A stretch of DNA of 7,504 nt from Nitrososphaerota archaeon. GTDB lineage: Archaea; Thermoproteota; Nitrososphaeria; Nitrososphaerales; CADDZS01. Positions 3,467 through 7,100 of the stretch are shown here, in pieces; the stretch's first letter is position 1, and each line of letters starts with the position of its first letter. The position numbers and the translations under genes were made by a program. Location of the stretch: positions 1-7,504 of the forward strand of contig JAPCJV010000080.1 in NCBI GenBank assembly GCA_027886785.1, given 5' to 3'. Below the pieces are notes generated by a model, which saw nothing but the letters and a program-made list of their open reading frames with translations, did not search any database and was not told where the DNA came from.

Positions 3467-4162
3467 ATGGTCCCGTCAAGCGCGGAAGGAAGAGGATATC
3501 CGAGTTTCAAGGAAAGGATTCCAAATGGATGGCGTGTGGTTCCTTCTGAAGCTTGGCCGATCAATACAACCTTTGGTCCAGAGGAAAAACTGGATCTAAA
3601 TGAATGGCGATTTGAGACTTACGGTGAAGTCGAAAAGGAAGTTTCGCTAAATTATGATGACTTGAGCAAACTCAACCAAAGCACCGTGATTACTGATCAT
3701 CATTGCATTGATGGGTGGAGCTATCTCGGTCATGAGTGGTCCGGCTTGGACCTCAGGGAAATAATCGAACACACTTCGCCAAAGAAAAGTGCGAAGTACA
3801 TCTTGATTGAATGCGAAAGAGGATTAACTCAGGCGTTTCCACTTACCCAGGATATTCTTTTTGCTACGAGGCGGAATGGCGTACCGCTTCTGAGGGGAGG
3901 CGGATTCCCACTTAGAGCAGTTGCCCCAGGTGAATATGGCTACAAGAGCGTAAAATGGGTTCGAAGAGTCAAGTTTACAGAAAAAAGAGAATTGGATTTC
4001 TACGAAAAAAAATTGTTAGACTGGGGCATGGAGGTTCCTCCTCCAGAAGAGAATCCCTGGAACTGCGAGAACGGCAACAGGAAGAAGCTTCTGCGCGCAG
4101 TTTTCTCAAGGCTGCTGGATGAGGAAAGAACGAGGAGAATAGAGAAAGCGCATGCCAGGTGA
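3467..4162 (+). CDS. Sulfite oxidase-fold molybdopterin-dependent oxidoreductase
   Basis: This is a predicted molybdenum enzyme with the Oxidored_molyb domain (sulfite oxidase / YuiH / MsrP superfamily). In the 231-residue protein, IPNGWRVV near residue 18 resembles the 'IPPGQ..V' entry of the stand-alone family members, and DLNEWRF...G.V leads into the domain. DHHCIDGWS places the expected Mo-ligating cysteine at C80. A loop GGGFPLRAVAPGEYGYKSVKW (about residues 144-164, read in two parts) matches the pterin-phosphate binding region. There is no signal peptide or twin-arginine motif, so it should act in the cytoplasm. About 45 C-terminal residues are charged and not part of the core. The start is ATG 3467, because an in-frame TGA lies at 3419-3421; a weak TTTTAT box sits about 30 bases upstream. 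The stop overlaps the Rieske gene by 11 bases. The substrate is unknown, and sulfite is not assured. Confidence 0.88.
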   Translation: MVPSSAEGRGYPSFKERIPNGWRVVPSEAWPINTTFGPEEKLDLNEWRFETYGEVEKEVSLNYDDLSKLNQSTVITDHHCIDGWSYLGHEWSGLDLREIIEHTSPKKSAKYILIECERGLTQAFPLTQDILFATRRNGVPLLRGGGFPLRAVAPGEYGYKSVKWVRRVKFTEKRELDFYEKKLLDWGMEVPPPEENPWNCENGNRKKLLRAVFSRLLDEERTRRIEKAHAR

Positions 4163-4508
4163 AATCTTGCTCTGCAGGGAGAGCGAGATCCCGTCGGAGG
4201 GCAGATCGAGAAAGTTTGTTGCGGGTGGGAGAGACGTCCTTCTCTTCAGATTGAACGGTTCGATTAGGGCAATTGAATCGATTTGTCCGCACGTGTGGAC
4301 TGACTTTGAGCAGGCTAGACTCAATGCTAGAGCCGGCACGATAAAGTGTCCGAACCACGGTGCGGTTTTTGATCTCACAACCGGAAAACCCCTTTGCGGA
4401 CCTTATGGGGTCGATGGAGATATTCTTCCAAACCTCACGTTTTTTGATATCATTTTGAGGAACGGGGATGTACTTCTAATTTCTGGGATACCTGCCATCT
4501 CGGACTGA
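4152..4508 (+). CDS. Rieske [2Fe-2S] ferredoxin-like protein
   Basis: This is a small soluble electron carrier of the NirD/BphF-like Rieske type. The 118-residue protein has both cluster motifs: ICPH (C45, H47) and KCPNHG (C66, H69), giving C-x-H-x18-C-x2-H. A short beta-rich N-terminal part (ILLCRESEIPSEG...VLLFRLNGSIRAIES) precedes them, and a third loop LCGPYG closes the cluster region. There is no membrane anchor or signal peptide, unlike respiratory Rieske proteins. The ATG overlaps the end of the molybdoenzyme gene by 11 bases, and GAGGAG (4132-4137) lies 14 bases upstream, which suggests translational coupling. The likely role is to accept electrons from, or pass them to, the molybdoenzyme encoded just before it; this is inferred from context. 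Confidence 0.92.
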   Translation: MPGEILLCRESEIPSEGRSRKFVAGGRDVLLFRLNGSIRAIESICPHVWTDFEQARLNARAGTIKCPNHGAVFDLTTGKPLCGPYGVDGDILPNLTFFDIILRNGDVLLISGIPAISD

Positions 4509-4563
4509 AGCTGGTACCAACCTCGAAGGCCCTGGATCTTCAATTTAATCAGCTCTCTAGAAA

Positions 4564-4586
4564 GTTTAGAGGATCGTCTTCTAAAC
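4564..4586. terminator. 10-bp hairpin downstream of the Rieske gene
   Basis: GTTTAGAGGA and TCTTCTAAAC form a ten-base-pair stem with one G-T wobble around a three-base TCG loop. It starts 55 bases after the Rieske stop codon. No U-tract follows, so if it marks the transcript end it does so as a 3' stability or processing structure rather than a bacterial intrinsic terminator. The rest of the 4509-4743 spacer shows no ORF of note. Confidence 0.4.
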
Positions 4587-4697
4587 ATAGACCGTTGTTC
4601 TCGGAGGCGAACCTGATAGTGAGGGGAACAGGAGTTGTCGGATACAGATAGTTCTTAGCTGCGTGCGATAACTTGACAAGCTCATGCGATGTAATTA

Positions 4698-4724
4698 GAA
4701 ATGTTAAATAGAATTATTCGTTCG
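4698..4724 (+). promoter_or_regulatory. Archaeal-type TATA promoter, copy 2 (nitrile hydratase-like operon)
   Basis: TTAAATA at 4704-4710 is preceded by BRE-like GAAATG. The start of transcription is expected near 4732-4735, leaving a leader of about ten bases before ATG 4744. The element differs from the copy at 3240-3266 at one base of 27. It is followed by TTCGTTCGTTCG (4717-4728, partly inside the repeat), a three-unit TTCG run. A shared regulator or simple co-expression of the two operons is likely. Confidence 0.65.
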
Positions 4725-4743
4725 TTCGTCAACAGATTTTGTA

Positions 4744-5730
4744 ATGTCCTCCCATATGCACGACTTTGATGACCACATAAGAGCGATCGTAGAAGATCTT
4801 GGGTATTGGCGGGCCAAGCGGTTTGAAGCCTCGGTCTTTCGCTTTGCAAGAATCGGGGCTCTAACTCTCTACGACATTATGAATTCTTACTCAAATATTC
4901 GAGAAATACCAGATCCACCTGAGGTGGAAAATGCTGAGAGCGAGACTGAAGCTCGAATTAGGGCCCTTGAAATCGCTCTCGGGGATTACATCAAAGGAGT
5001 TATGATTATTGAGACCGTCCCTATCGGGACCGTAGTAATCGATGATCTGAGAAAGGAAGGAGGATCGTATGACAAATTCTTCGTGATAGAGCATAAATCT
5101 TACACAGGTTCGCTAGATCAAAAAATCCACGACATTCAGAAAGATCTGAAAGATTACAGAACTTTCCTAGAGGCGTTTACAATGGCGTTGATTGCTAAAG
5201 GGTTTATGACTCAAGGGGAGCTCGAGAAAAAGCGCGAGGAAATTAAGAAATCCTCGATCGAAAACGGTGGCAGAATTGTCGCAAGAGCTTGGGTGGACCC
5301 CAAATTCAAAGCCCACCTTCTTTCTAATGCCAGAGATGCCGTGCGAGATTTTGGAACGCCGTTAAGCGGAACGCCTAACCTGATTGTCGTGGAAAATTCG
5401 GAATCAGTGCATAATGTGGTCGTATGTACGCTCTGCTCCTGCTACCCGTACGACCTGCTCGGAAATCCGCCATGGTGGTACAAACACGACAGTTACAAAA
5501 CAGCTATCATAGAAAACCCCAGAAAAACTCTCGACGATATGTTCGGTTTGAAGATAAAAAAAGAGGTTGAGATCCGCGTGCACGACAGCACTTCAGATTT
5601 CCGATATCTCGTCTTGCCAACGAGACCTTCCAACACCGAACATATGGCAGAAGGTGAACTTGCGAAGCTAATCACTTCGGAAAGTCTCATTGGAACTGCA
5701 GAGCCATTGAGCCCTGCAAAACAGAGTTAA
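4744..5730 (+). CDS. Nitrile hydratase alpha / thiocyanate hydrolase gamma-like protein with N-terminal beta-like extension
   Basis: This is a predicted metal (Co or Fe) hydratase catalytic subunit of 328 residues; stand-alone alpha subunits are usually about 200-245. The C-terminal half, from about residue 140, is a clear NHase-alpha domain: IVARAWVDPKFKAHLL (178-193), then VVVCTLCSCYP with the claw C228-T-L-C231-S-C233, then GNPPWWYK, PRKTLDDMFGL, EVEIRVHDST, FRYLVLPTRP and ESLIGTAEP. C-T-L-C-S-C is the form typical of cobalt-type enzymes. C231 and C233 would be the oxidised cysteines. The N-terminal part, FEASVFRFARIGAL...NIREIPDPP (about 27-59), resembles the NHase beta N-domain. Residues about 85-130 match nothing I recognise. 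ATG 4744 sits about ten bases after the predicted transcript start. The reaction would be nitrile to amide, or thiocyanate/other C-N triple bond hydration; the substrate is not resolved. The separate beta C-domain follows 12 bases later. Confidence 0.88.
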   Translation: MSSHMHDFDDHIRAIVEDLGYWRAKRFEASVFRFARIGALTLYDIMNSYSNIREIPDPPEVENAESETEARIRALEIALGDYIKGVMIIETVPIGTVVIDDLRKEGGSYDKFFVIEHKSYTGSLDQKIHDIQKDLKDYRTFLEAFTMALIAKGFMTQGELEKKREEIKKSSIENGGRIVARAWVDPKFKAHLLSNARDAVRDFGTPLSGTPNLIVVENSESVHNVVVCTLCSCYPYDLLGNPPWWYKHDSYKTAIIENPRKTLDDMFGLKIKKEVEIRVHDSTSDFRYLVLPTRPSNTEHMAEGELAKLITSESLIGTAEPLSPAKQS

Positions 5731-5731
5731 C

Positions 5732-5735
5732 GGAG
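5732..5735 (+). promoter_or_regulatory. Shine-Dalgarno site for the beta C-domain gene
   Basis: GGAG sits seven bases before ATG 5743, in the 12-base gap after the stop of the alpha-like gene. It fixes the start of the small gene and shows independent translation initiation inside the operon. The first gene of the operon lacks such a motif, a contrast common in archaea. Confidence 0.65.
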
Positions 5736-5742
5736 TGGGACA

Positions 5743-6009
5743 ATGCAGGATAATTTCAAACCTGGAAAAAAAGTGCACATCAAGACGACTAATCCAGAGG
5801 GCACTCACCGGACGCCGAAATACATCATGGGAAAATCTGGAACGATTTATATTTCGCACGGCGCCTTGACTGGTTACGAAGTTGATCACAGTGAAGATTG
5901 GGGGCCCCTCTACACGGTGGAATTTCAGACAGAAGAAATCAGCAGATCCAAGAGTATCGACAAAATCCTTGTCGATGTTCACGAGGATTGGCTGGAACCC
6001 GAAAACTAG
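5743..6009 (+). CDS. Stand-alone nitrile hydratase beta-subunit C-terminal domain (SH3-like barrel)
   Basis: This 88-residue protein matches only the C-terminal barrel domain of nitrile hydratase beta subunits, equivalent to the small alpha subunit of thiocyanate hydrolase. Diagnostic parts are FKPGKKVHIKT at residues 5-15 (family 'F..GD.VR...'), NPEGTHRTPKYIMGKSGTI at 17-35 (family 'P.GHTR.P.YvrGk.GtI'), then ISHG, GPLYTVEF (54-61) and VDVHEDWLEP (77-86). R23 occupies the place of the beta arginine that hydrogen-bonds the oxidised cysteines in known enzymes (R157 in Pseudonocardia numbering, from memory). Full beta subunits are about 200-230 residues, so the N-terminal helical half is absent here and may be supplied by the upstream fused protein. 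The two products most likely form one complex. Confidence 0.87.
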   Translation: MQDNFKPGKKVHIKTTNPEGTHRTPKYIMGKSGTIYISHGALTGYEVDHSEDWGPLYTVEFQTEEISRSKSIDKILVDVHEDWLEPEN

Positions 6010-6047
6010 GTTTTCTTATGCTGAGGCAAAGCGATCGAATTATTCGG

Positions 6048-7100
6048 TTAGAAGGATTGCAATACCTCATTAGAAGTTTTTTGGAGCATTGAAATTTGAT
6101 CCTTTGACCCCATGATCAGTTTCATCACCTGAACTCCCGCCTCTTTGTATTTCTCTATTCTCTTGATACACTCGTCTGGAGTTCCGTAGATAGACCAGCG
6201 GTCAATTGTTTGGTCGTCTACCGGATTCCCGAAATAAGATTCTATCATTTCCGCGACTTCTCTCCTCGCTATATCTCTCTCTGAGTTCACGTTGAACCAG
6301 CATTCAATTGCTCTGATAATATTACTCGGCTTACGCTTGTTATCTACGGCGAGGTTAGAAATTAATTCGGAACTATTTTTGAACTCCGCGGGATCTGCCA
6401 TGATTGTAATCCATCCATCAGCAAGTCTTCCTACACGGTTGAAAGATCCTGAGTAACCGCCATGCGATTTTTTCGTGAATCCGGGCGTACCGGAAATTTG
6501 CTTAACGTTGTCTTTCGGAACGTAGACCCCGCTGGCAATCCAGATAGGAGGAGGATTTTGGGTGGGACGAAATCCGAGCTTCACATCGTGCATTTTGTAA
6601 ACAGCTCCATCATATTGTAATGTGTCGCCTCTCCAAAGAGTTCTAAGAATCTCCACGGTTTCTTCGAGCGCTTTCCCTCGCTTGGTAACATCCACCCCTA
6701 CAAGTTCTGCTTCCTTTGCGACGCCTTTCGGGGTCCCTCCTCCGATGCCCAGAGTTAGAATCGCTCGCCCCAGTGAAATCCTGTCAAGAGTGGCCCAAGA
6801 CAGAGCGAGCATGATGGGATTACGAAAATGTGGCTGAATTATCGAACCTCCTATTTTCACCTTTTTCGTTTTTGATGCGACAGCGCCTAGCAAAGTCAAG
6901 GGTTCGAATCGGGGGCTGTCGATTAAGCTGTCACCCACCCACAAAGATTCAAACGACAATTCTTCTGCTTTTTCCGCGAGTGAAATAAGATCGGCGATGC
7001 TATAACCCGGGAGATAGACTAAAGCTCGATTATTGAGCGAAAGGCCGAATCCAAGTTTGCTCAAAGAAAATTTCTCTAATGGGTAGATTCCTAGACTCAA
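6048..7100 (-). CDS. Luciferase-like (LLM class) flavin-dependent oxidoreductase
   Basis: This 350-residue TIM-barrel oxidoreductase belongs to the bacterial luciferase superfamily, whose members use FMN or coenzyme F420. Visible hallmarks are LGFGLSLNNRA at the first strand (about 16-26), ISLAEKAEELSFESLWVGDSL (about 39-59, in two parts), KIGGSIIQPHFRNP (82-95), the ATLDRISLGRAILTLGIGGG block (103-122) and GKALEETVEILRTLW (142-156). The C-terminal YGTPDECIKRIEKYKEAGV is typical of the family. The start is TTG at 7098-7100, two codons after an in-frame stop; a TATA-like AAATATTT 26 bases away fits leaderless initiation. A second TTG at residue 13 is possible. The gene converges on the hydratase operon, with 38 bases between the stops. 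Substrate and cofactor cannot be told from the sequence; in an archaeon F420 is possible. Confidence 0.9.
   Translation of the reverse strand: MSLGIYPLEKFSLSKLGFGLSLNNRALVYLPGYSIADLISLAEKAEELSFESLWVGDSLIDSPRFEPLTLLGAVASKTKKVKIGGSIIQPHFRNPIMLALSWATLDRISLGRAILTLGIGGGTPKGVAKEAELVGVDVTKRGKALEETVEILRTLWRGDTLQYDGAVYKMHDVKLGFRPTQNPPPIWIASGVYVPKDNVKQISGTPGFTKKSHGGYSGSFNRVGRLADGWITIMADPAEFKNSSELISNLAVDNKRKPSNIIRAIECWFNVNSERDIARREVAEMIESYFGNPVDDQTIDRWSIYGTPDECIKRIEKYKEAGVQVMKLIMGSKDQISMLQKTSNEVLQSF

Follow-up and report, generated by a model that had tools for sequence, protein, structure and literature searches.

An N-terminally extended nitrile hydratase alpha subunit with a free beta C-terminal domain: apparently a third architecture of the family

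Introduction

Nitrile hydratases (NHases) are used industrially as catalysts, and arginines of the beta subunit are believed to be required in their active site; NHase combined with an amidase constitutes the classic route from a nitrile to an acid and ammonia. The cobalt (Co)-type enzyme, marked by a threonine in the claw motif of the alpha subunit, is encoded as alpha, a full beta and an activator. The beta C-terminal domain (beta-C) is a separate small gene in thiocyanate hydrolase (SCNase) and in the NHase of S. canus (AnhD/AnhE/AnhA), and toyocamycin NHase is another split-beta enzyme. Here we describe a two-gene unit at positions 4744-6009 of a 7,504-nucleotide (nt) stretch of DNA (contig JAPCJV010000080.1; the whole stretch is called the window), in which an NHase alpha subunit carrying a long N-terminal extension is followed by a gene for beta-C alone.

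The S. canus NHase has three chains, with beta in two parts (PMC7329996). In the eukaryotic fusion NHases of Monosiga and others, which resemble the window's enzyme in having one chain with extra sequence ahead of alpha, the whole of beta is fused (PMC2603476), and prokaryotic data sets, according to PMC3323583, lack such fusions. A review of NHases distinguishes six gene organisations and gives beta-Arg56 as the active-site arginine of the beta N-terminal domain (beta-N) (PMC7193024). Among archaea, NHases and SCNases are reported from halophiles (PMC10098168), and nthA from two ammonia-oxidising lineages (PMC12625717).

The layout in the window corresponds to none of the six organisations as set out in the available text of the review (PMC7193024), and we found no description of it in the open-licence literature, although a description elsewhere is possible. 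As far as sequence allows one to judge, an extended alpha with a free beta-C appears to be a third architecture of the NHase family that is apparently undescribed. A first-pass annotation of the window had read the unit as a re-partitioned NHase in which beta-N is fused to alpha; the novel partition, lying outside the six organisations of that review, is borne out by our analysis, whereas the beta-N/alpha fusion is not supported.

Composition of the two-gene unit

The upstream gene (4744-5730, + strand) is an open reading frame encoding a 328-residue protein, P0001, whose residues 138-328 (5155..5727, + strand) form a complete NHase alpha domain with its arm. PF02979 (NHase_alpha) covers residues 141-319 with an E-value of 5.9e-64 (profile positions 6-184 of 184), the alpha is 32-44% identical to solved NHase alphas, and its claw, C228-T-L-C231-S-C233 (5425-5442), satisfies the C-[TS]-L-C-S-C pattern by which the NHase claw is defined (PMC7329996). 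P0001, whose alpha domain and claw had been recognised in the first pass, is like Co-type alpha but differs from it in about 137 additional residues and in scoring below the NHase-alpha equivalog cut-off. The extension, residues 1-137 (4744..5154, + strand; hereafter the N-domain), has predicted helices at residues 8-36, 42-51, 67-90 and 99-105.

The downstream gene (5743-6009, + strand) is an open reading frame that follows after a gap of 12 nt in the same reading frame and encodes an 88-residue protein, P0002, with PF02211 (NHase_beta_C; E 6.2e-13) as its sole match above cut-off, in agreement with its initial identification as the beta C-terminal barrel alone. Like the beta of Co-type NHase, it keeps the conserved arginine: Arg23 falls on Arg149 of the P. 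putida beta chain in the alignment, and residue counting places it on P. thermophila beta-Arg157, which we take to be an active-site residue and whose position is mutated in some solved PDB entries. An R-x-P motif occurs somewhere in the row in 57 of 58 beta-C rows. Unlike a Co-type beta, P0002 lacks the beta-N half (PF21006), and no PF21006 protein was found among the eight proteins of the window that were scanned.

Distribution and phylogenetic placement

The fused layout is real and widespread, not a product of chance. A protein search with P0001 scored 7999 candidates and gave 7595 relatives, a set that also counts ordinary alphas; among the matches listed, 118 of 120 rows (query included) span at least 96% of the fused length, and several bear the source annotation 'nitrile hydratase subunit alpha'. 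The best named match among those listed, at 73% identity, comes from a Nitrososphaerales archaeon, so the window is likely archaeal, as first supposed; other named matches listed belong to Deltaproteobacteria, Candidatus Binatia and Chloroflexota. In genomes we located 18 related loci with N-domain and alpha, archaeal and bacterial (L001-L005 and L026-L038; some loci carry two labels: L001=L023, L002=L040, L003=L025, L005=L022 and L038=L052); the fused gene of L005 lacks its start, which lies beyond the end of the contig. A search for homologs of the same layout had been proposed with the first reading, and it was borne out: the fused gene is followed by a beta-C frame in the window and in all 18 loci, and again in all cases when longer stretches were re-read for the window and 17 of the loci. 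The beta-C start mostly falls within about 31 nt of the fused gene or in an overlapping open frame, with wider gaps in L032 (about 170 nt) and L052 (460 nt; the same locus as L038). Downstream of its fused gene, at a distance of about 970 nt, L050 has an additional 86-residue frame that groups with the beta-C frames and is possibly a second beta-C.

Two further N-domain candidates were left out of the count. L024, a profile match at 2.8e-5, reads as an HlyD-like coiled-coil protein and was dropped, and L039 (902-1768, - strand) joins an N-domain to an IspG-like C-terminus without alpha; the latter is a second N-domain in genome G554 and reflects either a rearrangement or an assembly chimera.

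The family is patchy in its distribution. The N-domain was found in 14 of 35 genomes of the bacterial order that holds L001 and in 2 of 46 genomes of the family to which the genome of L002 belongs, and in even draws over whole phyla the fused gene occurred in the query genome alone (1/300, 1/247 and 1/250; the draw of 247 gave two matches, one of them false). The draws of 300 and 250 seemingly sampled one archaeal phylum twice, since many genomes are common to both.

In an alpha tree of 53 rows, 23 fused rows lie on one side of a branch with support of 100/100 and a length of 0.94, opposite 20 full-beta and 10 split-beta comparison rows; L058, labelled as split, falls among the full-beta rows. 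A beta-C tree (58 rows, 90 columns) agrees with it (support 100/98), and in both trees the fused and the split-beta enzymes are on different branches. The fused enzymes form a third clade relative to this sample, because the root is not fixed and a single bacterial class supplies most of the rows used for comparison. Split-beta loci such as L006, L011 and L018 share the separate beta-C gene with the window's unit; unlike it, they have a recognisable free beta-N gene and an unextended alpha. The family models draw a similar line: against TIGR01323 (NHase alpha equivalog; cut-off 249.85 bits) P0001 scores 200.4 bits and five other fused members 197.6-215.1 bits, all below the cut-off, whereas three of three control alphas exceed it (260.8, 269.5 and 298.6 bits). 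Against TIGR03887 (SCNase gamma; cut-off 291.45 bits) P0001 likewise falls short at 145 bits, as do the other five at 149.2-164.4 bits.

The N-terminal extension

The extra N-terminal residues noted at the outset are a conserved part of the protein. Throughout 136 aligned rows E28, R103, E105, G107 and Y109 are invariant, and H11, D18, Y21, R23, R26 and E76 are kept in 135. The ratio of nonsynonymous to synonymous substitution rates (dN/dS) was computable for five of six locus pairs; it is 0.06-0.36 in the N part, where dS is at least 1 and near saturation, and 0.04-0.19 in the alpha part, with synonymous sites again near saturation. The extension is under purifying selection. Judged by its conserved residues, such conservation fits a role in the active site or at an interface and does not fit a passive linker.

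Part of this N-terminus had been said to resemble beta-N, a likeness that our profile comparisons (136 fused rows, with the window's protein counted twice, against 47 beta-N sequences) place elsewhere. Residues 1-137 match the beta-N profile with a probability (Prob) of 3.6%, whereas residues 138-175, the alpha arm, match it at 95.8%; a query of residues 1-170 reaches 90%, with the alignment confined to 135-168. It is the N-terminal arm belonging to alpha itself, at residues 135-168, that carries the significant resemblance (Prob 90-96%). Arms of ordinary NHase alphas (30 sequences) match the same beta-N profile at 96.0%, and the fused 138-175 segment matches those arms at 95.8%; because ordinary arms match beta-N equally well, the likeness is a trait of NHase alphas in general. 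Shallower profiles had given Prob 55% for residues 66-166 and 64% for the arm alone, and the apparent likeness ahead of the arm was dropped when deeper profiles kept only the arm.

Other approaches gave little to connect the N-domain with beta-N. Residues 1-137 have no Pfam match, and no PF21006 match was reported for P0001 under filters that drop most matches above E 0.1. Folded alone, the N-domain found no clear match among PDB structures, although absence of a match is not proof, and superposing its structure models on NHase beta chains yielded no residue-level placement. The alignment that was folded omitted short beta-C rows that had been misplaced. With no trustworthy alignment to beta-N, the invariant R103 is a candidate only for the counterpart of beta-Arg56. 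A second Pfam domain precomputed on many homologues, PF27793, is probably not the N-domain either, because it is present on P0054 and P0224, both of which lack the first 85-90 or so residues, and absent from P0129-P0133, which keep nearly all of the N-domain. The identification of the extension as a beta N-domain is thus not supported by these comparisons, and on the structural relation that the first reading required the result leans towards refutation.

A separate beta-N gene was looked for elsewhere in the genomes. No PF21006 gene turned up in any of the four archaeal draft genomes with a fused gene (G002-G005), nor in G577, one of the 14 fused-gene genomes of the bacterial order; the other 13 of these 14 do have a PF21006 match (partial in G571), in every case on contigs other than that of the fused gene. 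Matches also occur in 14 of the 21 genomes of that order without the fused gene, and PF21006 further matched short genes beside full beta genes that read as activators. The bacterial fused enzymes could possibly borrow a beta-N from elsewhere in the genome, which would not be needed as a rule. Genomes G006 and G001 contain split-beta, SCNase-like three-gene sets of beta-N, beta-C and alpha (L006, 2131-3415, and L011); G001 also has a fused enzyme, on a different contig from its split-beta set.

Gene neighbourhood and sequence signals

Among positionally conserved neighbour groups common to at least three loci, beta-C alone spans archaea and bacteria. In one bacterial order, 10 of 13 loci (L001 and L041-L052; L032 stands outside this count) have, directly upstream of the fused gene at 22-188 nt, a gene for a divergent asparaginase-family protein of about 560-572 residues where complete (for example, L042 461-2140 and L047 8405-10117). 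Two scanned copies matched PF00710 above cut-off (E 1e-8 and 9.8e-10), and one copy matched PDB asparaginases down to 8.6e-11. A putative cupin of 190-223 residues occurs in 11 of the 13 (L001, at 7286-7954; L041, L042 and L044-L051), the one copy that was scanned having no Pfam match, and metK-like and ahcY-like genes stand further upstream in several bacterial loci. The five archaeal loci, window counted, have neither the asparaginase-family nor the cupin-like gene.

In the window, the unit's neighbours include an ATP-binding cassette (ABC) uptake system of branched-chain or urea type and, upstream, a small redox pair (3467-4508) in which a molybdopterin oxidoreductase domain gene (PF00174) overlaps a Rieske protein gene by 11 nt; the ABC, molybdopterin and Rieske genes are absent from the neighbour groups common to at least three loci. 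A luciferase-like (F420-type) oxidoreductase gene (6048-7100, - strand) converges on the beta-C gene, and L003 has a luciferase-like gene nearby as well. A putative archaeal TATA box, TTAAATA (4704..4710, + strand), lies 34 nt ahead of the bases that immediately precede the ATG of the fused gene, and GGAG (5732..5735, + strand), a candidate Shine-Dalgarno element, stands 7 nt ahead of the beta-C start codon. A promoter and terminator scan of 4500-6200 gave about as many candidates as shuffled sequences, and Rfam gave no match in the window at gathering thresholds. In its alpha part, P0001 also scores 62.8 bits against the NHLP leader-peptide model of NCBIfam, above the threshold of 50.9 bits that three of three control alphas exceed as well.

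Proposed function and alternative explanations

Because its claw looks Co-type, the beta-C arginine is kept, the two genes are tightly linked and the enzymes occupy a branch of their own, we read the unit as a hydratase of a third architecture. We give an even chance to a two-chain, probably Co-dependent NHase-family hydratase composed of a novel helical N-domain with alpha in one chain and beta-C alone in the other, the N-domain doing the job of beta-N. The first chain would bind the metal through the CTLCSC claw and beta-C would contribute one active-site arginine, while the N-domain may cap the active site and provide a second set of polar residues in beta-N's stead, for which R103, E105 and Y109 are the best candidates and R23, R26, E28 and R36 further ones. 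Such an enzyme would convert a small nitrile, or a cyano compound akin to one, into the amide by hydration. Where the asparaginase-family gene lies upstream, in bacterial loci, its product may go on to hydrolyse that amide to acid and ammonia; a route from beta-cyanoalanine through asparagine to aspartate would fit the neighbour's family and is a guess. That the enzymes of archaea and several bacterial groups have exchanged beta-N altogether for an unrelated helical domain, fused to alpha, is a more tentative claim, to which we give somewhat less than an even chance.

Several observations weigh against this proposal. The N-domain's role as a beta-N replacement is inferred from absence and conservation, and the modelled pair, joined by an artificial 5-residue read-through linker, has a modest predicted template modelling score (pTM 0.67). 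The PF21006 matches in nearly all fused-gene genomes of the bacterial order make a borrowed beta-N possible there. As for the asparaginase-family neighbour, it is missing from 3 of 13 bacterial and all five archaeal loci (window counted), a 296-residue piece of it alone has no Pfam match at E 0.01, and the catalytic Thr-Asp pair of asparaginases reads Ser-Pro in it when compared by eye, so its substrate may differ.

Alternatively, the N-domain could be a beta-N diverged beyond recognition, in which case an ordinary beta was split and its N half moved ahead of alpha. The best alignment between N-domain and beta-N (residues 32-56) gives this idea a faint signal: its score of 19.3 exceeds those of all 100 column shuffles, which reach 18.75 at most, and the 13.1 of the reversed profile. 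The motif involved is the same one, helix-Gly-Thr-helix, however, and the firm likeness is confined to the arm that ordinary alphas share; we think this origin unlikely, though worth keeping in mind. A built-in maturation factor, serving metal insertion or assembly outside the active site, with beta-N either not needed or supplied by a different gene, would account for the lack of PF21006 proteins in the four archaeal genomes and accords with the matches of PF21006 to putative activator genes. It has parallels in engineered NHases with fused subunits or activator, in which the path of cobalt uptake is altered (PMC4709657), and in AnhD of S. canus, one of two beta-part subunits, which doubles as a chaperone (PMC7329996). 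Residues 1-137, however, contain no cysteine, and no search tied the N-domain to an activator, COG0523-type activators not having been searched for, so that we consider this explanation decidedly improbable. Least probable of all, in our estimation, is that the enzyme has left nitrile chemistry for a different small substrate, cyano or thiocyanato, in a new pocket shaped by the fused domain: the sub-threshold scores of all six members against both the NHase-alpha and SCNase-gamma models, the long separating branch and the sharing of beta-C alone between archaeal and bacterial neighbourhoods would all suit such a shift, yet claw and flanking residues match Co-type NHase and nothing points to any particular other substrate.

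Implications

For annotation, the beta-C partner is easily overlooked because its gene is short, at about 80-100 codons. Since one half of beta is kept in this natural family and the other apparently replaced, it becomes directly testable which portions of beta serve catalysis, metal insertion and substrate choice. If a hydratase with an N-domain in place of beta-N is the correct reading, a non-homologous domain would be able to stand in for half of a catalytic subunit, together with an active-site arginine thought to be essential, and the bacterial enzymes may act on a cyano-amino-acid-like substrate jointly with an asparaginase-family partner.
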